A stretch of 64,000 nucleotides of DNA from NCBI GenBank assembly GCA_016191115.1, contig JACPPG010000030.1, forward strand, positions 1 through 64,000, given 5' to 3'. The position numbers were made by a program, and so were the translations under genes. Below, piece by piece: positions 5,919 to 62,485 of this stretch (positions are counted from its first letter, which is position 1; every line of letters starts with the position of its first letter). This stretch comes from Planctomycetia bacterium. Its GTDB lineage: Bacteria; Planctomycetota; Planctomycetia; Pirellulales; JACPPG01. The notes below the pieces were generated by a model, which saw only the letters and a list, made by a program, of their open reading frames with translations, did not search any database and was not told the origin of the DNA.

Positions 5919-7411
5919 GAGCGTCCCTTTGCTGGAAATGATGCGGAGTCGCGATCGGTTGATCGAGCCGTTAAAGCGCGGTCGGATCGCGCCATCATGC
6001 TCGCGCGGAATCGGCGATTGCATACGACGCCCATCAGGCTCGCCGCGACGGCGGCGAGCACGATGCCGGTGGGTTCAGGCACCGTGATCGGCGTCATCGT
6101 CACGTTGACTTCGCCGCCCGCGACGAAGCTGACCGTCGCGGGAAATGCCAGCGGGTTGGCCGGATCCAATGCCGCGGTGGGATCGATTCCCAAGACGCGG
6201 AAACGACTCACGCCAGTCACTCCCAGCGACAGCGTCACACCGGGCGCCAACTGCTGGTAGAAGACGTATTGGCTGCCGTTCCAAACGTCGATCTCGTACA
6301 TGCTCGCGCCGATCGCGGGCAGGAGGATCGACTGGAAACTTGGTCCGCCGGAAGTCGCGAACTCGTAGCCGACGGCAACCACGGGGTCCAAAACGATCGG
6401 CGACCCTCCCACGACAAACAGATGAAACTGAAATGCGCCGCCTGGACCGGGGACGGATCCGGTCGGGAAAATCGGAATGCTGCTACCAACTGGAGTCGCC
6501 AAGAACCCATGCTGCCGGCTGTTACTGTCCGAGAAACTTCCAACAATCTGTCCCAGATTGTTGACGTCGAGCGCGCTGGAATACGACGAACCGGGAGGGG
6601 CGACGGTGACATAGGTGTCCCCGGAGAGGAAGAAGCCGGTACGCCCATAGACTCCTACAACTTGTCCGAGATCGTTAATTCCGAAGGCCCCGCCAACGGG
6701 AAGCGGTACAAACGCACCGTTGTGGAAATTCAAGACGCCGACGACCTGCGAGGACATCCCGTAATCGCGAACGCCGACGATGTCGCCGGAATTATTGGGC
6801 CCCCCAAAGGGAATAAAGTTGTCGAGCGATGCGACGTGGTCCGAAATCGCGAAACCATGTAAGACGTAAGAGGGATCCGTCCAATTGCCAGCCATCTCGC
6901 TGTGATCGTTGATGCCCGCGATGAAGGTAGGGTCGGACGGGTTGGGCCCCGCTTCGATCGGCACGAAGACGCCGTTCGTGATCAGGAACCCGGCGAACCG
7001 CGTGTTAGATGGGGTGGGGTCGACGTCAAAGCTGCCGACGACCTGGCCTGCGTCGTTGATGCCGCGCGGGACTGTAAGCCCGAATGTGCCGGGGTTGGGA
7101 TTGTCAATCCGCAAAAAAGGAGTGAAGGGAGGGGGCGACAGCAGGAAGCCGTGGGTAGTTCCCGCTGCGTCGCTGTAGCTTCCCACGATCTGACCGAGGT
7201 TGTTGATGCCCGAGGCGGCCGTCGACTGCGCACCTTGTATGTCGAAGATGCTGTAGGTGTAGTCGATGCCGCTGAAAGTCTGCGCCGCGGTAACGCCGGG
7301 CCACCAGCAAGCGATAAAGGCCACAGTGATGAGAAGCCCTTGGCCGCCGGACACGCCGGCCGCCGGACGCAGCGATAGCGATCCTGGCGCACCGCGATGG
7401 ACAACTCGCAT
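5915..7411 (-). CDS. HAF-repeat PEP-CTERM exported protein
   Basis: Predicted exported protein of 498 residues. After a hydrophobic leader (LLITVAFIACWWPGVTAAQ) come about six repeats of the extracellular HAF type, each near a GIN-D/N-GQ-VVG core: GINNLGQIVGSYSD, GINDAGQVVGSFD, GINDHSEMAGNWTD, GINDLGQVVGVYG and DVNNLGQIVGSFSD. These repeats probably form beta-propeller-like blades. The C-terminus has VPEPTGIVLAAVAASLMG, a PEP-CTERM-like signal, but is followed by an unusually long 30-residue tail. I chose the ATG at 7411 because GAAGGAG lies 8 bases upstream; a more distal start at 7438 lacks that. It is the first gene of a two-gene operon with the PEP-CTERM protein downstream. Confidence 0.82.
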   Translation of the reverse strand: MRVVHRGAPGSLSLRPAAGVSGGQGLLITVAFIACWWPGVTAAQTFSGIDYTYSIFDIQGAQSTAASGINNLGQIVGSYSDAAGTTHGFLLSPPPFTPFLRIDNPNPGTFGLTVPRGINDAGQVVGSFDVDPTPSNTRFAGFLITNGVFVPIEAGPNPSDPTFIAGINDHSEMAGNWTDPSYVLHGFAISDHVASLDNFIPFGGPNNSGDIVGVRDYGMSSQVVGVLNFHNGAFVPLPVGGAFGINDLGQVVGVYGRTGFFLSGDTYVTVAPPGSSYSSALDVNNLGQIVGSFSDSNSRQHGFLATPVGSSIPIFPTGSVPGPGGAFQFHLFVVGGSPIVLDPVVAVGYEFATSGGPSFQSILLPAIGASMYEIDVWNGSQYVFYQQLAPGVTLSLGVTGVSRFRVLGIDPTAALDPANPLAFPATVSFVAGGEVNVTMTPITVPEPTGIVLAAVAASLMGVVCNRRFRASMMARSDRALTARSTDRDSASFPAKGRS

Positions 7412-7618
7412 TAGCTCTACTCCTTCGGGCAAGGACATCGAATCGAGCGACTTTTGTGACGGGCGCGGGGAGCGTTGCGCCGCTGGTGACCACAGCCCCC
7501 CAAATAGGAAATGGGAATTCCCGAACGAGAGCGGCCAACTTTTTCCCGTGGCATCAGCACTTTGCCGCAGGCGGATTTCATTTGAATGGCCCCTTTTGGG
7601 GGGCTAGAATCGCCTTCT

Positions 7619-8265
7619 ATGTCAGGCACCACGTGGGACGAGGATGTGCGGTTTTCGCGGCTGGCGGACCGGCTTTCGGCGGGGGACGCGGACGCCGCCA
7701 CGCTTGTGGTCCGTCGCTTCACGATCCAACTCGTGGCCCTCGCCCGCCGCCACCTGGCGCAGCGGATTCGCGGCAAAACGGCGCCGGAGGACGTGGTGCA
7801 GTCGGCCTTCCGCACTTTTTTCAAGCGGCTTCGTCGCGGGCAATTCGACCTCGACAGTTGGGATGGGCTGTGGTCGCTATTGGTCGTGATCACCGTCCGC
7901 AAATGCGCCGCGCGCCGCGGGCACTTCTTTGCCGCCCGCCGCGATGTCCGCCGTGAAGCCCTGTCAGGCGGTTCGCGCGAGCACGGCGCGGAGTGCATCG
8001 CGCTCGCCCGCGCTCCCCGGCCCGAGGAGGCCGCGGCGCTCGCCGAGCTGGTCGAGCAGCTTCTGTCGGGCCTAAGCGACGGCGAACAGCAAATCGTTCG
8101 ACTGCGCTTGCAGGGCTACAGTATCGGGGAGGTTTCCCAGGCGGTGGGTCGGGCCGACCGCACGGTGCGTCGGGCGTTGGCGCGGCTCCGCCTGCGGGCC
8201 TTGCGGTTGACGGACATCGACGAGGAGGACGCGCTGGCGTTGCTTCATCGCGCGGAGCACGAGCC

Positions 8266-8269
<4 letters not shown>
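7619..8269 (+). CDS. ECF-type RNA polymerase sigma factor
   Basis: Predicted extracytoplasmic-function sigma factor of 216 residues. Region 2 is visible in VVRRFTIQLVALARRHL with APEDVVQSAFRTFFKRL. Region 4 is a helix-turn-helix near the C-terminus (LSDGEQQIVRLRLQGYSIGEVSQAVGRADRTVRRALARLR). The ATG at 7619 gives MSGTTWDEDV; an ATG at 7586 would add 11 residues that look non-coding. Its stop overlaps the GTG start of the kinase gene (GTGA at 8266-8269), so the pair is probably translated together. This sigma-kinase pairing is common in Planctomycetota and suggests the kinase controls or responds with this sigma factor. Confidence 0.9.
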
Positions 8270-11691
<3,422 letters not shown>

Positions 11692-11717
11692 CCGGCTCGG
11701 CGGCGCCTTTGACGGGG

Positions 11718-11736
11718 GGCGGGCATCCTGCCCGCC
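11718..11736. terminator. GGCGGGCATCCTGCCCGCC hairpin after the kinase gene
   Basis: A perfect palindrome with an 8-base stem (GGCGGGCA/TGCCCGCC) around a TCC loop, 26 bases after the kinase stop and between convergent genes. The copy at 39061-39079 is identical and 40350-40368 is the same element inverted. Its position suits a bidirectional terminator, but no U-tract follows. Confidence 0.5.
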
Positions 11737-11807
11737 TTTGGCCCTTGGCACGTTTGCCGCAGGCAAAAACGCCGTCGATCACAATGGCCGCGAGTTGGCA
11801 CGCCGCG

Positions 11808-16996: not shown

Positions 16997-17067
16997 CCAA
17001 GCCTCAAGCTCCACAGAATTTCACCAGCTCGCCGCCGCACGCCACCGCGCTCACAAGGAGGTTGATC

Positions 17068-20000
17068 GTGGGTCTGTTCAGCACCATGCTGCGATTCTCG
17101 CGACGGCGGGGCGTCGCGCCTGTGCCGGCGCCGGCCCGCGCCAGCGCGACACCTTACCGGCGGTGCCGCGTCGAGGAGGTGGAGCCGCGGAAGCTCCTGG
17201 CGGCCGACGTTCAGGTGGGCGCCGTGTACTTCGACCCAGGAAGCGGCTTCGACGAAACGCCCAACACGATCCAGATCACGTGGAAGGGGGGCGCGGCCGG
17301 CACCGAGCTCGCAAAATTGACGATCGACGCCGACAAAGTTGGCGACGGCCTGACGATCGGCGACACCTTCTTCGACATCGCCGACGGCGGCAAGGGCGCC
17401 TACGCCTCGCATCCCTTCCAGCTTGTCTCGCACGACGGCTTCGAGGTGACAAACGTCTCGGTGGTCGATGGCGGGCAGCTCCTGGAATTCACGTTCTCCG
17501 GCTTCACGTCCGACAAAAAGCTGATTTTCACCATCGACGTCGACGAGCAAGGATTCTTGAAGGCCAACTCGGTCGCCGAAGGGGCCGAATTCGAGGGCTC
17601 GAAGCTCACCGCCACGTTCCAGGCCCCGCACTACTACGACTTCACGGGCACGGACATCTTCTTCGACGACTTCGACGAGAAGTTCGCCGGCAGTGGCTTG
17701 AACCTGCCCAACAACGACTATCAGCCGCCGGCCCTCGAGCCCTCGCCCGTGCTGACGGCCGGGGCGATCATCAAGGGGCCGCAGGTGCCGCTGCCCAGCA
17801 GCCTCAGCGGCTTCGTCTACGACGACCTCAACCTGGACAACTCGCAGGAAGGCGGGGAGCCGGGCATCGGCGGCGTGCAGCTCTCGCTTTTGGAGTGGAA
17901 CGGATCGAGTTACGTTGCCACGGGGCTGACGACGACCACCGACGCGAATGGCGCCTACCGTTTCGAAAACTTGCTGCCCGCCCAGTACCGCGTCGTCGAA
18001 ACGCAGCCCACCGGCTACTTCAGCATCGGGGCCAAGGCCGGCACGATCAATGGCACCACCGTCGGCGCCGTCACCTCGCCCGACATCATTAGCGACGTCG
18101 TGCTTCTGGGCGGCGAGGACAGCGTCCACAACGATTTTGCCGAGGCGCGGCCCGGCCGGATCACAGGCATCGTGCACGCCGATCTCAATGGCGACTGCGT
18201 CTACCAGCCCGGCGAGCCGCTCCTGGCGGGCGTCACGATCAAACTGTTGAACGCGCAGCTCCAGGTCGTTGCCACTACGCAGACCAATGCCAGCGGGCAG
18301 TACGAGTTCACGAACCTCAGGCCCGGCGCCTACACCGTAATGGAGGATCAGCCGCAGGGCTATCTCGACGGTGGCGACGAAGTCGGCTCGGCGGGCGGAA
18401 TTCTGGCGCCGCCCGACGGCATCACCGATATCGTGCTGCTGTCCGGCACGAACGGAGTTGACTACAACTTCTGCGAAATTCCGCCGGCCAGGCTGGCCGG
18501 CAAAGTCTATCTGGACACCAATAATAACGGAGTGTTCGACGCCGCGGAGCGCGGCATCGGCGGCGTGACGCTAGCGCTTCTCGATGGCGGCGGAAACCCC
18601 CTGGGCGTGACCACGGTAACAGACGCGAGCGGTGCCTATCGCTTCGAGAACTTGGCGCCGGGCGCGTACGGCGTCGCGGAAATCCAGCCGGCGGGCTACC
18701 TTGATGGGCTGGATGCTGCAGGCAGCGCCGGCGGAACGGCGCTAAATCCAGGTGACAAGATCACGGGGGCCGTCCTCGTCGCCGCCATGAGCGCCGTCAA
18801 CTACAACTTCGGCGAGCTGCTGCCCAACAGCATCTCCGGCCGCGTGCACGTCGACACCAACGCCGACTGCCAATTCGATGCGGACGAAAAACCTTTGGCC
18901 GGCGTCGTGCTCAAATTGCTCGACGGACAGAATCAGGTCATCGCCACGACGCAGACCGACGCCACCGGCCAATACAAGTTCGACAACCTTCCGCCCGGAA
19001 CCTACACCGTTGTCGAGGTACAGCCGTCGGGGTACCTGGACGGCGACGACCACGTGGGCTCCGTCGGCGGCGTGCTCGTGCCGCCGGACAGCATCGCGCA
19101 GATCGCGCTTGTCTCGGACGTGCATGGCACGGAATACAACTTCTGCGAGCTGCCGCCGGCAACCCTGGCTGGAAACGTGTACGTCGACGACAACAACGAC
19201 GGCCTGTTCGATGCGACCGAGCACGGCATCGGCGGCGTGACGGTGATCCTTTTGGGCGCCGATGGAACGCCGCTCGGGCCCACCACGGTGACGGACGCGG
19301 CCGGCGCTTATCGCTTCGAGAATCTGCCGCCAGGCACGTACGGCGTGGCGGAAGTGCAGCCCGCCGGCTACTTCGACGGACTGGACACGGCCGGCAGCGC
19401 CGGCGGCACGGCGCAGAATCCCGGTGACAAAATCACGGGAGCCGTGCTCGTCGCCGGCATCAACGCCGTTGACTACAACTTCGGCGAACTGCGGCCGGCG
19501 AGTCTGTCGGGCATGATCCACGCCGATCTCAACGGAGACTGCGTCTTCCAGCCAGGCGAACCGCAGCTTGCGGGAGTGACGGTCCAATTGTTTGGCGCGC
19601 AAGGACAACTGGTGGCCGCGACCACGACCAACGCGCAAGGAGAGTATTCCTTCGGCAATCTGGCACCGGGGACGTACACCGTGCGCGAGGTGCAGCCGGC
19701 CGGCTATTTCGATGGCGGCGAGGAAGCCGGCAGCGCCGGCGGACTGGTCGGCAACGACACGATCGCGGCTATATCGCTCGGCTCGGGAGTTGCGGCCGTC
19801 GGCTACAACTTCTGCGAAATCCCGCCCGCGACTTTGGCCGGCAACGTCTATGTCGACGACAACAATAACGGCGTATTCGACCCTGCGGAGCTCGGCATCG
19901 GTGGTGTGGAGTTGATCCTTCTGGGCGCCGACGGAACGCCGCTTGGGCCCACCACGGTGACGAACGCGGCTGGCGCTTATCGCTTTGAGAATCTGCCGCC

Positions 20001-21681
20001 AGGCGCCTACGGCGTGGCTGAGGTGCAGCCGGCCGGCTATTTCGATGGACTGGACACGGCCGGCAGCGCCGGCGGCACGGCGCAGAATCCCGGTGACAAG
20101 ATCACCGGGGCGGTGCTTGTGGCTGGCATGAACGCCATCAATTACAACTTTGGCGAGATCCCCCCGGCCAGCATCTCGGGGAGGGTGTTCGTCGACCGCA
20201 ACGGAGAGTGCGTCTTCCAGCCGGGCGAGACGCTCTTGTCCGGCGTCACGATCCAGCTTTTGGACCCGGGCGGCAACGTGATCGCCACGACGACGACCAA
20301 CGCCGCCGGCCAGTACTCGTTTACGGGTCTGCCGCCCGGCACGTACGGCGTGCACGAAATCCAGCCCAGCGACTTACTCGAAGGCGGTAATAACGTCGGC
20401 AGCGCCGGCGGCGTGGTTTTCGACGTCGACACCCTTATCGCCATTCCACTGGGGGCGGGCGTGGCAGCGGTGGACTACAACTTCTGCGAGACGGTGCCGC
20501 AGAACACGGTCATCCTGCCTACTTCGCCGATCGTCATTCCCGAATTGCGGCCGCTGGCCCTGCCGCCGCAGCCGCGGGTGATTATCCCTTTCATTCCCGA
20601 AGACGTCCCCATCCCGCGGCTGACATTGTACTACGGCGGCGGCTACGCGATGGGTTACACCTGGCACTTGAGCATCATCGATGCCGGCCGGCCGCGCGGC
20701 GATCAATCATCGTCCGACCAGCGGTTGGCGCTCATCAGCATGCAGCCGACCGAGCCCTTCGAGCGCGGAGAGGAAGAGGTGCACAACTCGCAATGGCTGG
20801 TGGGCGCCGACGACACGGAAGACGGCGGCCGGCAGGTGTTCCGCTTCGGCATGCGTAACGGCATCCCCGTCACCGGCGACTTCAACGGCGACGGCATCAC
20901 CGACATCGGCTTCTACTACAAGGGCGAGTGGTTCATCGATCTCGACGGCAACGGCGCGTGGGATTCCGGCGACCTGTGGGCCAAGCTCGGCTACGACGGC
21001 GACAAGCCCGTCACCGGCGATTGGGATGGCGACGGCAAGACCGATATCGGCATCTTCGGCCGCGCCTGGCCGGGCGATCCGAAGGCCGTGAAGCTCGAGC
21101 CCGGCCTGCCCGCCCCGCACAACACGCTCATCACGGGCAAGAAGAAGAACGTCCCGCCCCCCACCGAGCAAGCCACCTTCGGCTGGCGGTTGCTGAAGCA
21201 CACCGCGCAGGGCGAGTACCGCTCGGACCTGATCGACCACGTGTTCCACTACGGCACGCCGGGCGACATCCCCATCACCGGCGACTGGCACGGCACGGGC
21301 GTCCACACGATCGGACTCTTCCACAAGGGGCGGTGGCTGTTGGATGCCAACGGCGACGGCCGCCCCAACGAGCTCGATTACGACTTCCAATATGGTGACG
21401 ATGGCGACCTGCCGGTCATCGGCGACTTCAACGGCGACGGCATCGACGAGCTGGGGGTATATCGCAACGGCGCGTGGTACATCGACACCAACAACGATCG
21501 CGTGCTCGACGCCCGCGACAAGCTGTTCGAGCTGGGCGGCCCAGGCGACGTGCCGGTTGTCGGCGACTGGAACGGCGACGGCACGGACGAGCCGGGAGTG
21601 TATCGGGAAGGCGCCGCGGCCGGCCCCGCCCCCGCGCCGGCTGCCACGACCGCGGCGGTGCCAACGCCGGCGGCTCAGTGA
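17068..21681 (+). CDS. Giant SdrD-type surface protein with FG-GAP-like C-terminus
   Basis: Predicted exported surface protein of 1537 residues. A basic N-terminus holds VEEVEPRKLLAADVQVG, resembling the EPRxLLA signature of large planctomycete extracellular proteins. A unique region to about residue 240 is followed by eight SdrD B/Cna-B-like domains of about 110 residues (to about 1140). The domains mostly alternate between two types: VYVDDNNNGVFDPAE-like (starting TLAGN) and HADLNGDCVFQPGEP-like (starting SLSGM). The Asp/Asn-rich loops suggest calcium binding. After a Pro-rich linker come FG-GAP/dockerin-like repeats with DFNGDGITDIGFYY, DWDGDGKTDIGIFG and DFNGDGIDELGVYRNG. The GTG at 17068 has an AAGGAGG six bases upstream. 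Function is likely structural or adhesive. Confidence 0.85.
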   Translation: MGLFSTMLRFSRRRGVAPVPAPARASATPYRRCRVEEVEPRKLLAADVQVGAVYFDPGSGFDETPNTIQITWKGGAAGTELAKLTIDADKVGDGLTIGDTFFDIADGGKGAYASHPFQLVSHDGFEVTNVSVVDGGQLLEFTFSGFTSDKKLIFTIDVDEQGFLKANSVAEGAEFEGSKLTATFQAPHYYDFTGTDIFFDDFDEKFAGSGLNLPNNDYQPPALEPSPVLTAGAIIKGPQVPLPSSLSGFVYDDLNLDNSQEGGEPGIGGVQLSLLEWNGSSYVATGLTTTTDANGAYRFENLLPAQYRVVETQPTGYFSIGAKAGTINGTTVGAVTSPDIISDVVLLGGEDSVHNDFAEARPGRITGIVHADLNGDCVYQPGEPLLAGVTIKLLNAQLQVVATTQTNASGQYEFTNLRPGAYTVMEDQPQGYLDGGDEVGSAGGILAPPDGITDIVLLSGTNGVDYNFCEIPPARLAGKVYLDTNNNGVFDAAERGIGGVTLALLDGGGNPLGVTTVTDASGAYRFENLAPGAYGVAEIQPAGYLDGLDAAGSAGGTALNPGDKITGAVLVAAMSAVNYNFGELLPNSISGRVHVDTNADCQFDADEKPLAGVVLKLLDGQNQVIATTQTDATGQYKFDNLPPGTYTVVEVQPSGYLDGDDHVGSVGGVLVPPDSIAQIALVSDVHGTEYNFCELPPATLAGNVYVDDNNDGLFDATEHGIGGVTVILLGADGTPLGPTTVTDAAGAYRFENLPPGTYGVAEVQPAGYFDGLDTAGSAGGTAQNPGDKITGAVLVAGINAVDYNFGELRPASLSGMIHADLNGDCVFQPGEPQLAGVTVQLFGAQGQLVAATTTNAQGEYSFGNLAPGTYTVREVQPAGYFDGGEEAGSAGGLVGNDTIAAISLGSGVAAVGYNFCEIPPATLAGNVYVDDNNNGVFDPAELGIGGVELILLGADGTPLGPTTVTNAAGAYRFENLPPGAYGVAEVQPAGYFDGLDTAGSAGGTAQNPGDKITGAVLVAGMNAINYNFGEIPPASISGRVFVDRNGECVFQPGETLLSGVTIQLLDPGGNVIATTTTNAAGQYSFTGLPPGTYGVHEIQPSDLLEGGNNVGSAGGVVFDVDTLIAIPLGAGVAAVDYNFCETVPQNTVILPTSPIVIPELRPLALPPQPRVIIPFIPEDVPIPRLTLYYGGGYAMGYTWHLSIIDAGRPRGDQSSSDQRLALISMQPTEPFERGEEEVHNSQWLVGADDTEDGGRQVFRFGMRNGIPVTGDFNGDGITDIGFYYKGEWFIDLDGNGAWDSGDLWAKLGYDGDKPVTGDWDGDGKTDIGIFGRAWPGDPKAVKLEPGLPAPHNTLITGKKKNVPPPTEQATFGWRLLKHTAQGEYRSDLIDHVFHYGTPGDIPITGDWHGTGVHTIGLFHKGRWLLDANGDGRPNELDYDFQYGDDGDLPVIGDFNGDGIDELGVYRNGAWYIDTNNDRVLDARDKLFELGGPGDVPVVGDWNGDGTDEPGVYREGAAAGPAPAPAATTAAVPTPAAQ

Positions 21682-21738: not shown

Positions 21739-22221
21739 TCAGACATGGACATAAAACGCCCCCAGGATCGCGCCAAAGGCGACATGGGCCAGGACGACTG
21801 AGATCGGCGTCCGAACCCCATAATGCATCGCCAGAAAACCCGGCGGCTCCAACTGGCGGACGACCGTCGGACCATATTGCTCGTTGGCCATGCGAGGGTG
21901 CAGCGCGGGCAAGAGAGGCATGCCCACGGTGAGCACAAAGGTGGCGTGGACGAGGCCCATCCCCGCACCCAGCCACCAACTGGCCGTCCCCCAGGCATGG
22001 AACGCCGCGATATACAGGAGCGCAAAAATCCAGCCGTTGACGAAGTGGATGACGAGCCCGACCAGCTTGGCCCGGTCCCGGTCCGGCGTGAAGATCGTCC
22101 CGAGCAGGTACGGGATGTTCATTCGCGTCATTCCCAACCCCTGGCTCCCCGCCAGGATGGCGGTCAAGACGACCGTGCCAACAAAGCCCCACAAGAGGTG
22201 CGAAAAAAGGTCCAAATTCAT
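21739..22221 (-). CDS. Four-helix membrane protein of unknown function
   Basis: Predicted integral membrane protein of 160 residues (MNLDLFSHLLWGFVGTVV at the N-terminus). It has about four hydrophobic segments: FVGTVVLTAILAG, GLVIHFVNGWIFALLYIAAF, WWLGAGMGLVHATFVLTVGM and SVVLAHVAFGAILGAFYV. Histidines in or next to the helices (VIHFVNG, LVHATF, VLAHVAFG) are striking and could bind a metal or ligand, which is inference only. The ATG at 22221 overlaps the GH15 stop as ATGA, so the two genes form an operon. I do not recognise the family with certainty. Confidence 0.8.
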   Translation of the reverse strand: MNLDLFSHLLWGFVGTVVLTAILAGSQGLGMTRMNIPYLLGTIFTPDRDRAKLVGLVIHFVNGWIFALLYIAAFHAWGTASWWLGAGMGLVHATFVLTVGMPLLPALHPRMANEQYGPTVVRQLEPPGFLAMHYGVRTPISVVLAHVAFGAILGAFYVHV

Positions 22222-24107
22222 CGGCGTGCCTCCGGGAGCAGCCGTTCGCGCGCCACGGCCGGCGAACTCGTCCGCTCGGCCTCGTTGTCCTCCCGATGGC
22301 CCTTTTTCTCGCGCTCGACCAACGACAGCGCGGCGTTGAGGAGGCCCACGTGGGTGAACGCCTGGGGGAAGTTGCCCAGCGCGTCGCCGGTTTGCGGATC
22401 GACCTCCTCCGCGAACAGGCCGAGGTCGTTGGCGTAGGCGAGGGTCTGCGCGAAGGCGCGATGGGCTTCCTCCGGGGTCCCGCCTCCTCGGGCGAGGAAG
22501 TCGGCGATCCAGAAGCTGCACATGGCGAAGGCGCCCTCCCTGCCCTCGAAGCTTTGCTCGTAACGATAAAGCAGCCCCGGACCTCCACCCAGCTTCTCTT
22601 GAATTCGCTGGTAGGTCCGCCGCATCCGCCACGACGACGCCTCCTCGAACCCGTGGAAGGCCAGGAGCAGAACGGTGGCGTCGAACGTATCGCCGCCGAG
22701 CACCTGCGTGTAACTCTCCAGGTTCGGGTTCCAGCTCCGCTCTTCGATGTCCCGGCGAATCTGTGCGCGGTGCCTGGCACATTTCTCAGCGGGCAGGTTG
22801 CTGATCCGGCCCTGCGCGTGCATTTCCAACAACCGGTCCAGGGCTACCCAGCACAGCAAGCGCGAGTGCGTGAAATGCTGGCGCTCGCCGCGCGGCTCCC
22901 AGATGCCGTTGTCCGGCTCGTGCCAGTGGTCGCACACGAAGTCGCCGAAGTGCCGCAGCATGGCCTGCGTTTCCCGGTCTAGGCGCCCTTCCCGCCACAC
23001 GAAATGGGTCACCGCCTCGATGACCTCCCCGTACACGTCGAGTTGGAGCTGGTTGCGGATCGCGTTTCCGATCCGCACCGGCCGCGACCCCCTGTACCCT
23101 TCGAGATGAGGGAGCTCCGTTTCCTCGGGGTTGCTTTCACCGAATACATCATAGATGACCCGAAGTTCCGGGCGGGTCAGGCGGGTGGCGTGCAGCATCC
23201 AACTGACGAAGGCCTCGGCCTCCTCCTCATACCCCAGCCCGAAAAGGGCCCGCGCCGTGAACGCGGCGTCGCGCAGCCAGCAGAAGCGGTAGTCCCAGTT
23301 GAGGTCCCCGCCGACGCGCTCGGGCAGGGACGTGGTGGGCGCGGCGACGATGGCACCGGACGGCGCGTAGGACATGAGTTTCAGCGCGAGCGCGCTGCGT
23401 ACCACCTGGTCCCGGTACGGCCCGCTGTACCGGGCACGGCTTGCCCAACGCCGCCACCAGGCGACGGTGAGCGCGAGCTTCTCGGAGATAAGCTCGCCCA
23501 GCGGCGGGAGAACGGCCGGTCCTTCCGCGCTGTAGGTGAGCGAGAAGGCCATTGACTCACCCGCTCTGACTTTGAGCCGTGCCGACGCGCCGCCCTCGGC
23601 GACGGGATTGAACTTCACGTCGCTGCGAAGCGTGACGAGACTTGCCCCCATCTCGATGCGCAGGCCCATCGCCCCTGCGTCGCGGATGGCGATCCTGGCA
23701 CGGCCATAGTCTGGGCGCGGGTCGAAGCGGACCTGGACTTCGACCTCGCCCTGCTCACATTCCACCTTCCTGACGAGTTCATGCTCAGGCCACGGCATCC
23801 GCCGCTTCTGCTCCTCGGCAGCGGCCGGCATGAAGTCGGTGAGGACGATTGCCCCCGTGGCCGCGTGGAACCGAGTCTGGAGGACGTTCGTCTGGTCAAG
23901 GTAGCGGCGCTCCACTCGTGCCGGCTCCGTGGGAGATATGCTCCAATCACCGCCGGCACGCCGGTCGAGGAGGCCGCCGAAAAAAGACGGGCTGTCAAAC
24001 CGGGGCCAACACAGCCAGTCGATGGAGCCGTCGCGCGACACCAGCGCGGCGGAGCGCCCGTCGCCGATGGCAGCATAATCCTGGATTTTTGGCGTCGGTC
24101 TCATCAT
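22218..24107 (-). CDS. Glycoside hydrolase family 15 protein (glucoamylase/trehalase type)
   Basis: Predicted cytoplasmic GH15 enzyme of 629 residues, hydrolysing alpha-linked glucosides such as trehalose or maltodextrins by inversion. The N-terminus is characteristic (IQDYAAIGDGRSAALVSRDGSIDWLCWPRFDSPS). The central (alpha/alpha)6 domain shows APTTSLPERVGGDLNWDYRFCWLRDA and GYRGSRPVRIGNAIRNQLQLDVYGE, the latter near a catalytic Glu. The C-terminal part carries FLARGGGTPEEAHRAF and GNFPQAFTHVGLLNAAL. There is no signal peptide. I placed the start at the ATG at 24107; the ATG at 24104 is an alternative with better spacing to GGTG, and a TTG at 24119 is also possible. It is upstream in a two-gene operon with the membrane protein. 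Confidence 0.9.
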   Translation of the reverse strand: MMRPTPKIQDYAAIGDGRSAALVSRDGSIDWLCWPRFDSPSFFGGLLDRRAGGDWSISPTEPARVERRYLDQTNVLQTRFHAATGAIVLTDFMPAAAEEQKRRMPWPEHELVRKVECEQGEVEVQVRFDPRPDYGRARIAIRDAGAMGLRIEMGASLVTLRSDVKFNPVAEGGASARLKVRAGESMAFSLTYSAEGPAVLPPLGELISEKLALTVAWWRRWASRARYSGPYRDQVVRSALALKLMSYAPSGAIVAAPTTSLPERVGGDLNWDYRFCWLRDAAFTARALFGLGYEEEAEAFVSWMLHATRLTRPELRVIYDVFGESNPEETELPHLEGYRGSRPVRIGNAIRNQLQLDVYGEVIEAVTHFVWREGRLDRETQAMLRHFGDFVCDHWHEPDNGIWEPRGERQHFTHSRLLCWVALDRLLEMHAQGRISNLPAEKCARHRAQIRRDIEERSWNPNLESYTQVLGGDTFDATVLLLAFHGFEEASSWRMRRTYQRIQEKLGGGPGLLYRYEQSFEGREGAFAMCSFWIADFLARGGGTPEEAHRAFAQTLAYANDLGLFAEEVDPQTGDALGNFPQAFTHVGLLNAALSLVEREKKGHREDNEAERTSSPAVARERLLPEARR

Positions 24108-24598
24108 CTCACCGGCCAAGGCCGACGATGCCGAACTTCATGGCAAAACTCCGCGGCGCAATCCTCCCAGGGATGGCGAGGCGACCTTCCGTGACTGTGG
24201 TCGTTCTCCTTGGGCGCCGCCGAGGAACCCTCCTTCGCGACTTGGCAGTTTAGAGGACAGTTTGGGGGTCTGCCACTCAGCCCGGCTGTCCGATCAATGC
24301 GGTGGGGTTGGCAGCCCGTAAGTCCCTATCGACGCCAGTACCAGCAGCGGCCACAGCGCAAACGTCAGACTCCAGCCTGAATTCCTCGACTATGGAACTT
24401 GTCCCTTTTCCCTTTTCTTGCAATTCATGTGCCGCGGCATGCCCTTTGCGGTACTCGAAGGTGACTGCGCTGCTACCCGAAGCATCGCACCGCTTGGGTT
24501 TCGCCTGGATGAAGGGCGCCTGGGGTTTCCTTCATGCACGCGAATACATTTCCCGAGCGCATCAGAGATTCAGAGTTTTTTTCAAAAGGAGATGTTCC
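24108..24598. other. Divergent intergenic region upstream of the MNIO operon
   Basis: About 490 bases between GH15 (leftward) and the first TIGR03067-type gene (rightward). A reading frame extends back from the latter to 24302 but has no protein-like signal before the RBS at 24586-24592. It likely contains the promoters for both directions. I see no recognisable operator, riboswitch or repeat. Confidence 0.5.
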
Positions 24599-25063
24599 AT
24601 GCGCTGGTTTGCCCTGACGAGTTTCGCGGTCGGCTTGGTCATGGCCGCCGCCGGCACCGCTGCCGCCGATCATTTGACCAAGTGTCCTGGGACCTGGGAG
24701 ATGGTCTCTGGCGAACGGGACGGCAAGGCCCTGCCCAAGGAGGACGTCGAACACGTCACCATGACCTGCAAGGCGGAAGGGAAGGACCTCAAGATCGTCG
24801 TGAAGAAGCACGACAAGGTCGTGACCGAGGCGACGGCCAAGCTCGCCAAGGAGGGCAAGGACCACGACCAGTACGACATCACCTACGCCAAAGGCACCAG
24901 CCCCAAGGGCGAGGACCTTAAGGGCAAGACCGTTCACGGCATCATTTCCGTGGCCGGCGACACCATGAAGGTCTGCTGGCACGGCGGGGAAGGCTACCCG
25001 AAGGAGTTCACCGGGGCCAAGGATTCCCACTGCGCCCTGCGGACCTACAAGCGCGTCAAGTGA
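24599..25063 (+). CDS. Secreted TIGR03067-type protein (single domain)
   Basis: Predicted exported protein of 154 residues. The signal peptide is MRWFALTSFAVGLVMAAAG with cleavage near TAAA-DH. The mature part is one domain of the planctomycete TIGR03067 type, a lipocalin-like beta fold: CPGTWEMVSGERDGKALP at its start and TMKVCWHGGEGYPKEF near its end. Unlike many relatives it has four cysteines in the mature part (CPG, MTCK, VCWH, HCAL). An AAAGGAG Shine-Dalgarno lies just upstream, and the ATG at 24599 fits it. It is the first of five co-directional genes ending with the MNIO enzyme and its partner, so it may be part of that operon as a substrate, carrier or accessory, or merely adjacent. 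Confidence 0.82.
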   Translation: MRWFALTSFAVGLVMAAAGTAAADHLTKCPGTWEMVSGERDGKALPKEDVEHVTMTCKAEGKDLKIVVKKHDKVVTEATAKLAKEGKDHDQYDITYAKGTSPKGEDLKGKTVHGIISVAGDTMKVCWHGGEGYPKEFTGAKDSHCALRTYKRVK

Positions 25064-25191
25064 CTGAACCGCCGCGATGACGGAAGCAGCCACGCAAGCC
25101 GAATTTGTTCCGACCGCAAGTCCGCCGAGCCCGGGACGGTCCCGTTGCCGTGGCGGCTTGCGAACTCTCATCAAGCAGAAGGAGTGTTCTC

Positions 25192-25332
25192 ATGACCGTC
25201 GTCACCAAACCCGCGGCCCCGAAGAAGGCCATTCGCGAGTTGAAGAACCTGCGCACCTCGACCCGCGGCCAGAGCCTGAAGCTGGCGTTCTGCCACGGCT
25301 GCCACGCGGTCCACCCGGACCGCAGCAAGTAG
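25192..25332 (+). CDS. 46-residue peptide with C-terminal CHGCH motif, candidate MNIO substrate
   Basis: Small open frame with a strong Shine-Dalgarno (AGAAGGAG) 7 bases before the ATG at 25192. The peptide has a basic, helical-looking N-terminal part (KKAIRELKNLRTSTRGQ) and a C-terminal cluster, FCHGCHAVHPD, with Cys at 34 and 37 and His at 35, 38 and 41. This leader-like plus Cys-core layout resembles ribosomally made precursors of MNIO (DUF692) enzymes, which modify cysteines. CHGCH also fits a CxxCH heme motif, but no signal peptide is present, so cytochrome c is unlikely. It lies about 1 kb upstream of the MNIO gene on the same strand. Assignment as precursor is inference from context; I do not recognise a family. 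Confidence 0.6.
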   Translation: MTVVTKPAAPKKAIRELKNLRTSTRGQSLKLAFCHGCHAVHPDRSK

Positions 25333-25411
25333 CTCAGGAGCGGGTCGGAAGTCATTGGCGCATTACCGCGACCGTGACTTCTGACCTTTCCTTTTTCCGA
25401 AGAGGTGCTTT

Positions 25412-26245
25412 ATGAGCGTGTGTGCTCTGGTGGTCTGTCAGGCCGGCTTGGTTCTCGCCGCCAACCGAGCTGCCGCCGACGACCTCCACAAGCTGTCGGG
25501 GACCTGGAAGCTCGTCGCCCTCGAACGGGATGGTAAGCCCTTGCCCCAGGGGGAAGTTGCCGATGAACTCGTCATCACTCGTCTCAAGGGCGACAACAGT
25601 GGGTGGCAAGTCATAGTGAACCAGGACGGTAAGGTCCGGGCCGAGGCGACGATTCAGCCCACCAAGGGCGAGAAGCACGGCGATAGCACGTACACCAAAT
25701 TCGATGTCACGTACAGCAAGGGCCGCCACACGGGCAAGACCCTTCACGCCTTCATCCACCTGGACGGCGACACGCTCAAGGCGTTCTGGACCAAACCCGA
25801 TGAGGGGGGCGAGGGTGCCGAGAAGACCTTCCACACCTTCAAGCGTGCTGCCGATGGCGGCGGCGACGCCGCGAAACTGTCGGGAACCTGGAAACACATC
25901 TCCGCCGAACGAGATGGCAAGCCCCTGGCCAAGGAGGAATTCGACAAGTACCCCAGTCACGTCGTGATCACGCGCCGCGAGGGCGCCAAAGGGGAGTTCA
26001 AGGTCGTGATGAAGATCGGCGAGGAGGTCGTGGCCGAAGCGACGATCAAGCGCTCCGAGGGCGAGAAGGGTGCGGAAGAAAACCAGTACGACGCAGCGTA
26101 CTCGAAAGGCCGCCACAAGGGCATGACCCTGCGCGCCACCATCCAGGTGGACGGCGATACCCTGAACTCCTGCTGGACCAGAGCCGACGAGAGGGGCGAA
26201 GACGCCAGCCAGACCTGCCATACGTTTGAACGCGTCAAGGAATGA
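25412..26245 (+). CDS. Secreted TIGR03067-type protein with two domains
   Basis: Predicted exported protein of 277 residues. A short hydrophobic leader (MSVCALVVCQAGLVLAANRAAA) precedes two tandem TIGR03067-type domains separated by a Gly/Asp linker (RAADGGGDAAK). Domain one runs from KLSGTWKLVALERDGKPLP to KTFHTFKR; domain two from KLSGTWKHISAERDGKPLA to QTCHTFERVKE. Domain two carries two cysteines (NSCWTR and TCHTF), matching cysteine positions in the single-domain protein at 24599. The ATG at 25412 follows GAAGAGGTG. It lies 89 bases upstream of the MNIO gene. The family's molecular function is not known to me. Confidence 0.82.
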   Translation: MSVCALVVCQAGLVLAANRAAADDLHKLSGTWKLVALERDGKPLPQGEVADELVITRLKGDNSGWQVIVNQDGKVRAEATIQPTKGEKHGDSTYTKFDVTYSKGRHTGKTLHAFIHLDGDTLKAFWTKPDEGGEGAEKTFHTFKRAADGGGDAAKLSGTWKHISAERDGKPLAKEEFDKYPSHVVITRREGAKGEFKVVMKIGEEVVAEATIKRSEGEKGAEENQYDAAYSKGRHKGMTLRATIQVDGDTLNSCWTRADERGEDASQTCHTFERVKE

Positions 26246-26334
26246 AATGTCGTGACGCCCGAGGGGCCGGACAACCCCAGAGCGCGGGTGGGAGCGTGTC
26301 GTTACCGCAGCGGCAATCCAGAAGGGATCTTCGC

Positions 26335-27225
26335 ATGGCTGTTTCCGTCAAGTCTGTCATCGAGAAACCGGGGCTCCTGCCGCCGCCGAAGAGTCGCAGG
26401 GTGCCGGCAATCGGCTACGCCCTGTGGGAGGAGAACTGCCACGTCCTCGACGATCCGGCCCTGAACGCCGTCGAGATCACTTTTGAACGCGCCGACGATC
26501 CGTTACGGCGGGGCCGCTACCTCGGCGAGCGGGACTTCGACTACGTCAGCGTTCACGCCCTGAAGTTGTCGCCAGCCAGCCCCGAGCCGCCGGCGCGCGT
26601 CTACCTAGACGCCTTGCGGGCACTGGCAGAGGAGAATGGGGCGGTTGCCGTGAGCGACCACCTGGGGTTCACCCGCGACGGCGATGGCGGAGTAGAGATC
26701 GGCCACTTCGCGCCGCCCCCGTTCACCACCGCCGCCCTGGACGCTACCTGCCGGAATCTCGACCTCATTCAGGGCTACTTCCGCGGCTTGCCTTTTTATC
26801 TGGAGAACATCGCCTCCCTGTTCCGGTTTCGCGGGGAGATGAGCGAGGCCGAGTTCCTGACCCGTGTGCTGGAGCGAACCGGCTGCGGCTGGCTTCTGGA
26901 TGTGACCAACCTGTACGCCAACGCCCGCAACCACGGTTACGACGCCTCCGGCTTCCTGCGCCAGGTGGTGCCGACTGCGACGAGGCTGCAAATGCACCTG
27001 TCGGGCGGGTACTTCGACGCCGAGGCCGGCCTGTACATGGACAGCCATTCGCGTCCCGTGCCCGCTGAAGTCTGGAACCTGTACCACGAAGCACTGTTGC
27101 TGAGCCGGGGTAAGGTTGACGCCGTCTTCATCGAGCGCGACCAGGACTTTCCCGACGAGGCTGGCTGGCGCGTCGAGGTCCGCCAAGCTCGCGGCATTGC
27201 CGACGCGGTGGAGGCCGAACCATGA
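26335..27225 (+). CDS. DUF692-family multinuclear non-heme iron oxidase (MNIO)
   Basis: Predicted cytoplasmic TIM-barrel iron enzyme of 296 residues, of the family that includes MbnB, TglH and ChrH, which oxidatively modify cysteines in ribosomal peptides. The metal-site signature residues are visible: H74 (SVHALKLS), H109 (SDHLGF), H124 (EIGHFAPP), E157-N158 (YLENIASLFRF), D189, N192 and H200 (LLDVTNLYANARNHG), H221 (QMHLSGGY), D236 and H238 (MDSHSRPVP) and E267 (FIERDQD). I chose the ATG at 26335 because GAAGGGA lies just upstream; the frame is open to 26242 without merit. Its stop overlaps the partner gene start (ATGA), as is usual for MNIO-partner pairs. Substrate is unknown; the nearest candidate is the peptide at 25192. 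Confidence 0.9.
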   Translation: MAVSVKSVIEKPGLLPPPKSRRVPAIGYALWEENCHVLDDPALNAVEITFERADDPLRRGRYLGERDFDYVSVHALKLSPASPEPPARVYLDALRALAEENGAVAVSDHLGFTRDGDGGVEIGHFAPPPFTTAALDATCRNLDLIQGYFRGLPFYLENIASLFRFRGEMSEAEFLTRVLERTGCGWLLDVTNLYANARNHGYDASGFLRQVVPTATRLQMHLSGGYFDAEAGLYMDSHSRPVPAEVWNLYHEALLLSRGKVDAVFIERDQDFPDEAGWRVEVRQARGIADAVEAEP

Positions 27226-27983
27226 TCGACCAAGGCCAGCGTGACCGAGCTTATCGCGACGAACTGCGCCGCTGGGTGCCTGCTTTGGTCGGGGTCCAGG
27301 CCATGAACGGCGTGTGTGAGGCCCTCGACCCGGGTTCCTCGCCCGCCGGCCTGAAGTTATTCGCCGAGGGCAACCTCGGCAAACGCCGCGAGAAACTCCA
27401 CGCCCAGCTCGAATTCGTAGCGGAGGCATTCGACGATTTTGAAGACCTCGCGTCGGCTTACATCCGAAGTGTTCCCCCGGCCGCCTACGACACGACCGCC
27501 AGCGACGGCGAGCGGTTCCTGTCGTGGCTGGAGCGGGCCGGCGCGCTGACCCCCCGGCAGCGCGATTACGTCGCTTGTCAGCGGGCCCGCCTGGGCGTCG
27601 AGGCCGCGGCCCGTGCCGACCGCCGCGGCCATCTCGGCTTCCAGGAACTCTGGAACTCGGCCCTCCAACGGGCAGCGACGTTGGACATGGCCCCCGGCTT
27701 GCGGGTCTACCTGAACCCGAGCCGCGCCTGGTCACAGTTCATAACCGCGGCACTGCTGGACGACGATGCGACCTTGCCAGCTGACGTGCTGTTCTTCGCC
27801 GCGGGCGAGGCGATCCGCACGGCGGTCTTGGAACCAAACGGCAGGGCGCTGATCGAAGAACTGGCCTCGTGTGGTCCCTGCACGTTCGACGAATGGGCAG
27901 CCCTGAGTCGGCATGCTGACCGGCGGGAACTCGTTGAATTCTGCCGCGACTTGGCCGAGATGGGCCTGGTGGCCTTCGATTAG
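27222..27983 (+). CDS. MNIO partner protein (TglI/MbnC-like in position)
   Basis: Predicted cytoplasmic protein of 253 residues overlapping the MNIO stop by ATGA. The first 190 residues are helical (DELRRWVPALVGVQ, RREKLHAQLEFVAEAFDDFED) with YLNPSRAWSQF in the middle. The last 60 residues look like a winged helix (RALIEELASCGPCTFDEWAA and ELVEFCRDLAEMGLVAFD), comparable to the peptide-binding end of known partners. Partner proteins of MNIO enzymes recruit the precursor peptide; this role is inferred from operon position and layout, not from confident sequence similarity. Two cysteines in SCGPC may be structural. It is the last gene of the run. Confidence 0.72.
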   Translation: MIDQGQRDRAYRDELRRWVPALVGVQAMNGVCEALDPGSSPAGLKLFAEGNLGKRREKLHAQLEFVAEAFDDFEDLASAYIRSVPPAAYDTTASDGERFLSWLERAGALTPRQRDYVACQRARLGVEAAARADRRGHLGFQELWNSALQRAATLDMAPGLRVYLNPSRAWSQFITAALLDDDATLPADVLFFAAGEAIRTAVLEPNGRALIEELASCGPCTFDEWAALSRHADRRELVEFCRDLAEMGLVAFD

Positions 27984-28150: not shown

Positions 28151-28475
28151 ATGTCCACGAGTTTGTTGTATCACACTTGTGGGATTCGAGGCTACGAGTA
28201 CCGGTCGACAGAGTACGTTTGGGGCACGACAGTCGTGCACATCGAGCAACCGCGGGTGAAGCTGCGGTGTCCCCATTGCGGGAGGGGGAAGTGTCGGTCC
28301 GGGGAAGGAGCGTGTCTTTCGCAGCATTCCGATCGGGAGCAAGCCGGTGGCGATCGTCCTGGAAGTTGCTCGCGTCTATTGCGCGAAGTGCAATGCGAGC
28401 CGGCACGTGCGGGTCGGCTTCGCGGACGAATACCGCCGGCACACGCGGGCGCTTGCCGGCTGTATCAGCACTTGC
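28151..28475 (+). pseudogene. Truncated, frameshifted ISL3-family transposase
   Basis: The N-terminal part of an ISL3 transposase is recognisable: MSTSLLYHTCGIRGYEY, then RVKLRCPHCGR, which is the start of the family's zinc-binding region. The frame then breaks near 28270-28310 in G-rich runs, and the continuation appears in two other frames (EGEVSVRG, then KERVFRSIPIGSKPVAIVLE and VYCAKCNASRHVRVGFADEY). The sequence stops near RRHTRALAGCI, so about three quarters of the gene, including the catalytic DDE region, are missing. A 10-base inverted repeat (GTGGACATGT) spans 28097-28158 at its upstream side. It ends at the convergent ABC gene. It marks a past insertion at the right edge of the MNIO block. 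Confidence 0.72.
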
Positions 28476-28506
28476 TGCCCTCTGCCCACCCCTACTATCT
28501 ACTTCC

Positions 28507-29433
28507 TTACGACGTGATTCCCTTGGTCAACTCCATGAACGCCGTCTCCAGGTTGATTTCTTCTTCCTTGAACATGGTCAACCGGTGGCCGGCGCCGACC
28601 AACAGGGTTGGCAACTCGCTGTAATCCTGTACGTCGGGCAAAAGCGTTACGGTCAGAACGCCGTCGCTTGAGTCGACTTTCTCGACGCTGGTCTGCTGTT
28701 CGAGGAGCTTCGCGGCCCCGTCCATGTCGTCCTTCACGCCGATCTTCAGCACCGGCTGGCGGCGGACTTTGCGCATCACGTCCGCCACGTCGGCGTTTTC
28801 CAAGAGCACGCCCTTCTCGATGATGCCGATCTTGTTGCAAATGTCGGCCAGCTCCGGCAGGATGTGACTAGAGACCATGATGGTCTTCCCCATGTTGCGC
28901 AGCTCTTTCAAGAGACCGCGGATTTCGATTCTGGCCCGGGGATCGAGGCCGCTGGCGGGCTCGTCGAGCAACAGCACCTGCGGATCGTGCAATAGCACGC
29001 GGGCCAGACCGAGCCGCTGCGTCATGCCGCGCGACAGGCTGGTGACGAAGGCCTCGCGCTTGTAGCCCAGGTCCACCAGTTCGAGCACCTCGTCGCAAAT
29101 CTTGCGGCGGGCCGCTCCTTTGATCCGGTACGCCGCGGCGAAGAACTCCAAGTACTCGATCACCTTCATGTCGTCGTACACGCCGAAGAAGTCGGGCATG
29201 TAGCCGATGACGCGGCGAATTTCCTTCGGCCGCGTGTAGATCGAGTAGCCGCAGACGTACGCCTCGCCGAACGTGGGATTCAGAAGCGTGGCCAGGATCC
29301 GCATGGTGGTCGTCTTACCGGCGCCGTTGGGGCCGATGAAGCCGAACACGTCGCCACGCTCGAGCTTCAGATCGAGATGGTTGATGGCGTGCAACTGGCC
29401 GTACGTCTTGGTGAGGTCTTTGGTTTCAATCAT
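28507..29433 (-). CDS. ABC transporter ATP-binding protein (CcmA/drug-exporter type)
   Basis: Predicted ATPase of 308 residues for an ABC exporter. Walker A is GPNGAGKT, the signature region is LSRGMTQRLGLARVLLHDP, with LSRGM in place of the common LSGGQ, Walker B is VLLLDEPASGLD and the H-loop is VSSHI. A C-terminal domain (about 215-308) is typical of the ABC-2 exporter class. No membrane subunit with the same style lies directly beside it; the next gene upstream encodes a large protein with membrane segments (29629-31821) and is separated by 195 bases of repeats. Whether they work together is unknown. The ATG at 29433 gives MIETKDLTKTYGQ, a typical start. Confidence 0.9.
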   Translation of the reverse strand: MIETKDLTKTYGQLHAINHLDLKLERGDVFGFIGPNGAGKTTTMRILATLLNPTFGEAYVCGYSIYTRPKEIRRVIGYMPDFFGVYDDMKVIEYLEFFAAAYRIKGAARRKICDEVLELVDLGYKREAFVTSLSRGMTQRLGLARVLLHDPQVLLLDEPASGLDPRARIEIRGLLKELRNMGKTIMVSSHILPELADICNKIGIIEKGVLLENADVADVMRKVRRQPVLKIGVKDDMDGAAKLLEQQTSVEKVDSSDGVLTVTLLPDVQDYSELPTLLVGAGHRLTMFKEEEINLETAFMELTKGITS

Positions 29434-55694: not shown

Positions 55695-55739
55695 GCGGCA
55701 ACGAGCAACACAGTTCGAACAAGAGGAGATGAAATCAAC

Positions 55740-56504: not shown

Positions 56505-56566
56505 CGAGAGCGAGTGAAGTGGAGATTCTCGTCGCGTCGGCGATGTGATCGCTACGTTTCAAAATG

Positions 56567-56591
56567 TGAGATTTGAAATCTGAGATTTCAG
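56567..56591. repeat. TGAGATTTGAAATCTGAGAT intergenic repeat, copy 1
   Basis: AT-rich element between paralogues 1 and 2. A similar one (AAATTTGAAATCTGAGATAT) lies at 57396-57430 between paralogues 2 and 3. It includes the self-complementary GATTTGAAATC. Both are in the same orientation and position relative to the genes, so they may have been duplicated with them. Confidence 0.6.
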
Positions 56592-56618
56592 ATGTGGTGG
56601 GCAAGGAGAGATCGGAAC

Positions 56619-57368: not shown

Positions 57369-57395
57369 AGCGGCAGACGAGCCGTCCACAGTCCG

Positions 57396-57430
57396 AAATT
57401 TGAAATCTGAGATATCTGAGATTTGAGATT
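57396..57430. repeat. TGAGATTTGAAATCTGAGAT intergenic repeat, copy 2
   Basis: Second copy of the AT-rich element of 56567-56591, extended by another GAGATATCTGAGATTTGAG stretch. It lies between paralogues 2 and 3. Confidence 0.6.
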
Positions 57431-57448
57431 ACTCACCCGGGGGGAGCC

Positions 57449-58324: not shown

Positions 58325-58334
58325 GGCAATCGAA

Positions 58335-58414
58335 CAATACTCCCTTTCCCCCAGCGGGATAGGGCGAGCTAACAACACTCCCTCTCCCCTGGCGGGAGAG
58401 GGCCGGTGTGAGGG
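58335..58414. repeat. Tandem CTCCCTCTCCCC/GGGAGAGGG intergenic repeats
   Basis: Two related units, each a hairpin-like run: ACTCCCTTTCCCCCAGCGGG (from 58339) and ACTCCCTCTCCCCTGGCGGG (from 58377), each followed by GATAGGG or AGAGGG. They lie in the gap before the diheme cytochrome gene. Confidence 0.55.
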
Positions 58415-58452
58415 GGCCGAACGTTTTGTCAGAGTTCCCAAGAACCATCGCC

Positions 58453-59763: not shown

Positions 59764-59837
59764 CGCGGGGCGAAGAACGGAAATGAACGGTAGCCAGCTA
59801 AAACGTCGGCTGTTGAGTCGGCGACGAGAATCCGGGT

Positions 59838-59897: not shown

Positions 59898-59918
59898 CTG
59901 CGCATGTGGAGGACAACC

Positions 59919-60677: not shown

Positions 60678-62485
<1,808 letters not shown>

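Follow-up and report, generated by a model that had tools for sequence, protein, structure and literature searches.

The window analysed here is a 64,000-nucleotide (64-kb) stretch of DNA from a Planctomycetia bacterium (GTDB lineage Planctomycetota; Planctomycetia; Pirellulales; JACPPG01), comprising positions 1 to 64,000 of contig JACPPG010000030.1 of assembly GCA_016191115.1. At positions 24599-27983 it contains an operon of five frames on the same strand, which encode a TIGR03067 protein (TIGR_A), a short cysteine-containing peptide, a second TIGR03067 protein (TIGR_B), a multinuclear non-heme iron-dependent oxidative enzyme (MNIO) and a partner protein. The five frames had been proposed from the letters alone (the original prediction), and all of them were recovered in the same order and positions:

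24599..25063, plus strand: TIGR_A, a 154-aa TIGR03067 protein with a hydrophobic N-terminus (by eye); NCBIfam score 50.9 bits, cut-off 40.15.
25177..25184, plus strand: ribosome-binding site AGAAGGAG of the peptide gene, recognised by eye in the sequence.
25192..25332, plus strand: precursor peptide gene, 46 aa, MTVVTKPAAPKKAIRELKNLRTSTRGQSLKLAFCHGCHAVHPDRSK; identified by homology, substitution pattern and profile match.
25231..25260, plus strand: leader motif IRELKNLRTS, residues 14-23, probably the part recognised by the partner; [VI]RE[LIV] occurs in 30 of 32 distinct peptides.
25291..25305, plus strand: core motif CHGCH (Cys34, Cys37), the predicted modification site; CxxC occurs in 32 of 32 distinct peptides.
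25412..26245, plus strand: TIGR_B, a 277-aa protein with two TIGR03067 domains; NCBIfam score 59.1 bits for the whole protein.
26335..27225, plus strand: MNIO (DUF692, PF05114 MbnB_TglH_ChrH), 296 aa; Pfam score 177.9 bits, cut-off 25.
27222..27983, plus strand: partner, 253 aa, with a helical DUF2063-like part and a C-terminal winged-helix part resembling a precursor recognition element (RRE), according to an AlphaFold2 (AF2) model and Foldseek.

The start of the partner gene overlaps the end of the MNIO gene by ATGA, and the peptide with its ribosome-binding site lies, as the original prediction had described, between two TIGR03067 genes; the products of both, as whole proteins, score above the cut-off.

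The nearest relative of this operon is locus L039 in genome G024, which belongs to another family of the same order and carries the same five genes in the same order. The two peptides are 69.6% identical, and a similar ribosome-binding sequence, AAAAGGAG, precedes the L039 peptide gene. At the DNA level, identity between the window and L039 is 80.7% in the peptide gene and 69.3% and 61.3% in the flanking spacers. Between the two peptide genes the synonymous rate (dS) is 0.37 and the nonsynonymous rate (dN) 0.16, giving a dN/dS of 0.43; across ten pairs formed from five peptides with CCR repeats of one relative group, dN/dS is 0.06-0.17. The combined pattern of leader and CxxC occurs once in the window and in none of 150 first-order Markov sequences of 64 kb, a control that is lenient because the pattern was composed after the family was known. 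Judged by homology and substitution pattern, the 46-residue frame is a real coding gene under purifying selection. A non-coding substitution pattern had been named in advance as a possible argument against the gene, and the opposite was found, with dN below dS.

The window copy might alternatively be a decaying or recently acquired, possibly silent remnant. Such a reading would agree with the missing MNIO in the genus, where none of the other four genomes has a match to the window enzyme (P0003) at E <= 1e-10, with the fact that, of the genes compared, the window and L039 neighbourhoods have only the operon genes in common, and with a core of just two cysteines. However, all five frames are intact and preceded by ribosome-binding-like sequences (by eye), and CHGCH is kept in L039, in the genome of another family and beside an MNIO of 80% identity, with dN below dS as given above. 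We therefore consider a remnant highly improbable.

The MNIO of the window was compared with the characterized enzymes of its family. The closest NCBIfam models are BufB (146.7 bits, cut-off 310) and then HvfB (119.1, cut-off 360), followed by ApyH (62.3, cut-off 400), MbnB (29.5, cut-off 325) and ChrH (29.1, cut-off 600), so that the score lies below every equivalog cut-off. Ten residues, H74, D108, H109, E157, D189, N192, H221, D236, H238 and E267, which we take to be metal ligands, are the same in all 16 aligned members of the subfamily, and six of them (E157, D189, N192, H221, D236, H238) align with the TglH chain 8hci_D. A DUF692 enzyme with the expected His, Asp, Glu and Asn ligands, as originally claimed, is thus borne out.

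This MNIO is the only one seen in its genome, which is 94% complete. When P0003 was compared with 396 genomes of the order, matches at E <= 1e-15 were obtained in 72; nine of these matches, the window included, come from eight genomes and have 55-100% identity, and the others among the matches listed have at most 41%. Among scanned genome contigs, nine loci with 63-80% identity were found, all from Planctomycetota and at least two of them previously found (L047, L051), together with four distant MNIO loci at 29-38%. L056 from Nonomuraea, which has a distant MNIO (38% identity), contains a 55-aa frame at 3864-4031, upstream of this MNIO and ending SCSGCGSCSGCAHSGCSGCAH, which is a candidate CxxC-repeat precursor. 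With an MNIO profile built from 16 members (A2, threshold E <= 1e-60), matches were found in 6 of 392 genomes across the phylum, in 3 of 241 genomes of one family and in 34 of 170 of another. A tree of 68 MNIOs places the window in a single clade of 42 rows, with a Shimodaira-Hasegawa-like approximate likelihood ratio test (SH-aLRT) support of 100 and a branch of 2.35 changes per column; the tree is a quick one with SH-aLRT support only, several distant rows stand on long branches, and a program warning concerned the joining of L022 to the clade. Matches in G949, G906 and G963 (L134, L132 and L133, respectively) and a second match in G991 stand outside the tree. By sequence, the window enzyme is a member of a distinct Planctomycetota subfamily.

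The 46-residue peptide accompanies this enzyme through most of the clade. A short frame of the RELxxLR type is located upstream of the MNIO on the same strand in 31 of the 42 clade loci. The search behind this count had been suggested with the original prediction, and its outcome supports, together with the purifying substitution pattern, the idea advanced there that the peptide is a new MNIO precursor. The family was defined from an alignment of 11 peptides (A1), namely those of the window, L039 and nine further loci with the same leader; CxxC or the leader was the criterion for picking most of these 11 and also the peptide of L122, which was missed by the A1 profile and spotted by eye. The profile was tested on 37 loci, 26 of them held out. 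Loci L089/L124, L097, L098, L099, L100 and L102, whose peptides are the same as A1 members and which were judged to be the same records, were left out of the 26, and L125-L128 are wider copies of L090, L092, L094 and L096. A homologue was detected in 19 of the 26 held-out loci (E <= 3.6e-11), in each case on the MNIO strand and upstream of the MNIO match, at a distance of 90-438 bp from the end of the nearest copy; these 19 loci span 11 genera, one of which is shared with A1. In the reverse direction, a profile was built from 31 peptides, those of the window and L039 being left out; when six-frame segments from the window and from five other loci were scored with it, the window peptide came first (E=3.4e-6), the next match having E=0.057. 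Away from the MNIO, the A1 profile found nothing better than E 0.003 in the 396 genomes, with 18 candidates scored per genome; the four strong matches in these genomes all lie beside this MNIO and are all A1 members already.

The precursors are 37-59 aa long and have, by inspection, a leader instead of a Sec signal peptide. In the alignment of 11, C34 is invariant and C37 is conserved in at least 90%, and CCRC occurs in 28 of the 32 distinct peptides. The window type excepted, the number of cysteines ranges from 4 to 11, and typical cores are CCRCCRCCRGGR. Four peptides have atypical cores: L041 carries (CRS)n, L122 carries (CRx)n, and the window and L039 both carry CHGCH. From these comparisons, CHGCH is an atypical, reduced core, (CCR)n is the typical one, and CxxC is common to the clade. 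In L108/L145 (G950), one MNIO is preceded by three precursor genes whose leaders and cores are almost identical. Assignment of the peptide to a known family was considered and dropped: no NCBIfam family matches any of the 11 members at E <= 5, and Pfam gives weak matches in some relatives only (best E 0.0037, DUF2477) and none for the window peptide.

The partner gene is present in 40 of the 42 clade loci. The partner has no DUF2063 Pfam match at E <= 1. Its best AF2 model, with a mean predicted local distance difference test (pLDDT) score of 81, is helical in the first 150 residues, followed by strands and a helical C-terminal part. Among 350,542 PDB chains, Foldseek ranks 3dee (NGO1945) first (E 2.2e-3, probability 1.00) and 8hci_A (TglI) second (E 0.053, probability 0.97), the third rank having a probability of 0.08. 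The C-terminal winged helix proposed earlier is consistent with both the model and these fold matches. A gene that follows the MNIO and encodes an NGO1945/TglI-like fold lacking a DUF2063 signature agrees with what has been termed a PME-type 2 partner (PMC12452194; this and the other papers cited here are represented by the portions available). Downstream of the partner, a further gene is found in 22 of the 42 loci and matches Pfam ABC_membrane_3 in the three scanned; for this count the sequence is too short to tell in L049, L103, L113 and L115, and about 700 bp are visible in L118. MNIO genes of or near the clade with neither a detectable partner nor a precursor in the stretch read were observed in L040/L051 (G171), L094/L127 (G482) and L132 (G906).

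Four loci, L043-L046, form a branch that nests inside the 42-row clade and have the same kind of MNIO and partner, with the precursor peptide downstream of the partner. The two of these peptides that were scanned, from L043 and L046, match the mersacidin/lichenicidin leader TIGR03898 at 62.1 and 60.8 bits (cut-off 23.5), whereas the window peptide has no TIGR03898 match. A core of this branch is, for example, CSSCHGSKACRVR, and the peptides end in CSSCHGS or CSGCHG. Since the branch lies within the clade, one enzyme line appears to serve two unrelated leaders, with CxxC kept. The next gene encodes a DUF4135 (LanM dehydratase-like) protein in all four loci and is followed in L043 and L044 by a C39-peptidase ABC transporter; the DUF4135 proteins have little or no recognisable cyclase part, with a weak LANC_like match in L045 and L046 but none in the other two loci. 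All four loci can be described as hybrid clusters, located in L043 at positions 6918-11788, downstream of the partner. In L045, an AcrB-type resistance-nodulation-division (RND) pump (PF00873; 3295-6384) ends 184 bp before the MNIO start, and another RND frame is located at 158-2986 of L046; a link of this branch to efflux is possible.

Taken jointly, these data argue, with a probability of roughly 80%, that the peptide is the precursor of a ribosomally synthesized and post-translationally modified peptide (RiPP), whose leader is bound by the partner and whose core is oxidised by the MNIO at one or more CxxC cysteines. The principal alternative is that the small CxxC peptide stays unmodified and serves the MNIO, or a separate substrate, as a metal chaperone or as an accessory with a redox or regulatory role. 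CHGC and CCRC are able to bind metals as they are, the peptide is short and basic, and six clade MNIOs (L040, L090, L092, L094, L115, L120) have no recognisable peptide. On the other hand, RiPP precursors typically combine, as these peptides do, a conserved leader with a core of variable length and repeat number, L108 has three precursor copies ahead of a single enzyme, and the related branch has the known RiPP leader TIGR03898 and, in two loci, a C39-type transporter. An unmodified peptide is accordingly regarded as unlikely.

Several observations weigh against the RiPP reading or limit it. With respect to the peptides, 9 of the 19 held-out matches belong to one genus; the presence of CxxC in 32 of 32 overstates its invariance because CxxC was partly a selection criterion; and the window core, with only two cysteines, departs from (CCR)n. 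Four of the 42 clade loci use the different, mersacidin-type leader, and seven (L040, L090, L092, L094, L115, L120 and L121, the last with just 148 bp upstream of its MNIO match) have no recognisable precursor, nor have L132-L134, the three loci outside the tree. No other convincing CxxC frame with either leader was found in L040, L120, L125, L126 and L127, or in the inspected regions of L115 and L121. With respect to the partner, it is absent from L040 and L094 in the tree and from L132 outside it, the five AF2 models range in mean pLDDT from 81 down to 41 (74 to 41 for the other four), and the Foldseek E-values are modest. The window and L039 have no ABC_membrane_3 gene; because of this and the reduced core, the product or its export may differ in the window lineage. 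The chemistry is uncertain because the MNIO falls far short of the cut-off for BufB as well as of that for HvfB, and because the partner does not belong to the DUF2063 Pfam type that accompanies thiooxazole makers. Among the scanned proteins around the window operon, none was recognised as a metal-resistance protein. As a separate observation, L125 has an antisense frame at 5636-5779 with CCVCCRCEC at its start, which was left out of the precursor counts.

In the established MNIO-RiPP scheme, the winged helix of the partner binds the leader and the MNIO oxidises core cysteines (PMC12452194, PMC13097082), and 5-thiooxazole together with copper binding is described for fontiphorin and its relatives (PMC13097082). 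By analogy, the C-terminal winged-helix domain of the window partner would hold the leader around IRELKNLRTS and offer the C-terminal CHGCH core to the MNIO, which, using iron and oxygen, would oxidise one or both of the CxxC cysteines. The product could be 5-thiooxazole, formed with the loss of 4 H per cysteine, although we rate the chance of this particular product as somewhat short of even; the 4 H loss and the metal binding are guessed from the closest scores, which are of the thiooxazole-forming, copper-binding bufferin/HvfB type. In most relatives the core is longer, (CCR)n or (CRx)n, and the same kind of enzyme would turn it into a dense array of modified cysteines; the mature product is probably a metal-binding or stress-protective peptide. 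The window peptide has no signal peptide (by eye), and therefore export and leader cleavage must depend on proteins from elsewhere; no exporter or leader protease was identified in the operon.

In the genome search, the two domains of TIGR_B score singly 39.4 and 25.2 bits, below the cut-off of 40.15, and the L039 counterpart of this protein is longer (404 aa). The AF2 model of TIGR_A (mean pLDDT 79) has its best Foldseek matches among fatty-acid- and bile-acid-binding proteins (best E 7e-4, template modelling score by query about 0.4-0.5), and the predicted fold is a calycin barrel of the fatty-acid-binding-protein/lipocalin-like kind. In the window lineage, these proteins, which would be secreted, may bind or carry the product. 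Among 19 neighbourhoods compared, TIGR03067 genes stand beside the MNIO only in the window and L039; their absence beside the enzyme in other lineages therefore marks them as a lineage-specific addition, and the idea that they are general members of the system was dropped. TIGR03067 is not matched at all in five further MNIO-bearing genomes among those examined, and the four genomes of the same genus that lack the MNIO have 1-4 matches each.

Another possibility, which takes up the suggestion in the original prediction that the Cys-bearing TIGR03067 proteins are involved, is that the MNIO acts on these secreted proteins and that the peptide is present only incidentally. In the genome of the window, every TIGR03067 match (3 of 3) is inside this operon, as is every one in G024 (4 of 4), and some putative MNIO substrates are reported to be long and to bear signal peptides (PMC12452194). 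However, in the nine other genomes that have both this MNIO subfamily and TIGR03067, the matches are on other contigs in 9 of 9, a separation that is not absolute because the contigs are drafts. Neither window protein has a CxxC (by eye), one of the four cysteines of TIGR_A, Cys29, is replaced by Val in the closest relative, and across the clade it is the peptide rather than TIGR03067 that accompanies the enzyme. This alternative is thus not favoured, and we consider it very improbable.

Around the operon, a frame at 28151-28624 of the window begins MSTSLLYHTCGIRGYEYRSTEYVWG and contains CPHCG, by eye recalling the start of an ISL3-type transposase; it has no Pfam match at E <= 1e-4 and may for this reason represent a gene fragment next to the operon. 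Positions 17062-21681 code for a 1539-aa protein in which SdrD_B-like domains recur, and adjacent to the operon, at 22218-24119, the minus strand encodes a glycoside hydrolase 15/trehalase-like protein. Cytochrome c and cytochrome oxidase genes (Cytochrom_C, COX1, COX15-CtaA) at 51153-63517, about 23 kb away, are probably unrelated to it. Viral and plasmid origins of the operon were considered and dropped: no match was confirmed in one viral-contig scan, which reaches close relatives only, and the 188 plasmid records that match P0003 all have less than 60% identity (32-40% in the ten listed).

Heterocycloanthracin-type precursors, which we take to be the Bacillus precursors with repeated Cys-Xaa-Xaa, are modified by a cyclodehydratase and not by an MNIO. 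The window family resembles Bacillus bacteriocin precursors in this repeated Cys-Xaa-Xaa core (PMC2674419). Among the MNIO systems, captophorins, bufferins and oxazolin (BufB, HvfB and FonB, with a DUF2063 partner and 5-thiooxazole) have the closest enzymes by NCBIfam score and share an MNIO gene followed by a partner of the same general fold and an upstream Cys-rich, often repetitive precursor. They differ in that the window MNIO scores far under their equivalog cut-offs, the partner has no DUF2063 match, and the precursors of the window family carry a leader rather than a Sec signal and three-residue CCR repeats rather than EGKCG or DUF2282. TglHI (pearlin, 3-thiaglutamate) and other MNIOs with PME-type 2 partners are similar in lacking a precursor signal peptide and in having a partner with the NGO1945/TglI fold and no Pfam signature. 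In TglHI, the modified residue is a C-terminal Cys added enzymatically to the precursor (PMC9016710), unlike the CxxC or CCR-repeat core found here, and the window MNIO is only distantly similar to TglH (best stretch 128-268, E 1.7e-15). Methanobactin, chryseobasin and aminopyruvatide are set apart by scores below the MbnB, ChrH and ApyH equivalog cut-offs.

The adjamnio-7 precursors, with a representative from Novilysobacter, are likewise signal-less, contain CxxC and lie beside an MNIO (PMC12452194); this comparison is by description only, and the available passages of that paper mention neither the RELxxLR leader nor CCR repeats. Planctomyc- does not occur in its main text, and Pirellula appears once, for a TIGR04222 protein. 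No description of the peptide family was found among the papers listed in the searches of the open literature, which includes the accessible portions of PMC12636315, PMC8692599 and PMC7794033 and leaves subscription papers and supplements outside. The family thus appears to be undescribed, as had been suspected from the start. A broader proposition can be formulated, in which a phylum-specific RiPP class of Planctomycetota uses one MNIO subfamily to modify CxxC units ranging from CHGC to (CCR)n and (CRx)n, with leader types exchanged (RELxxLR in most members, the mersacidin type with a LanM dehydratase-like protein in the related branch), poly-heterocyclic metal ligands as products and, in the window lineage, a secreted calycin (TIGR03067) binding the product; this is tentative, and would on balance sooner be doubted than accepted.

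MNIOs perform unusual cysteine chemistry, and new classes of their substrates have repeatedly uncovered new reactions. The 32 distinct short precursors of the enzyme subfamily defined here are small enough for joint synthesis and testing. The adjacent cysteines of the CCR repeats raise the question of whether an MNIO modifies neighbouring cysteines, and the change of leader inside one enzyme clade makes the choice of substrate by the partner testable. For the TIGR03067 proteins, whose name was not found mentioned in the literature searched, the operon provides a first functional setting.

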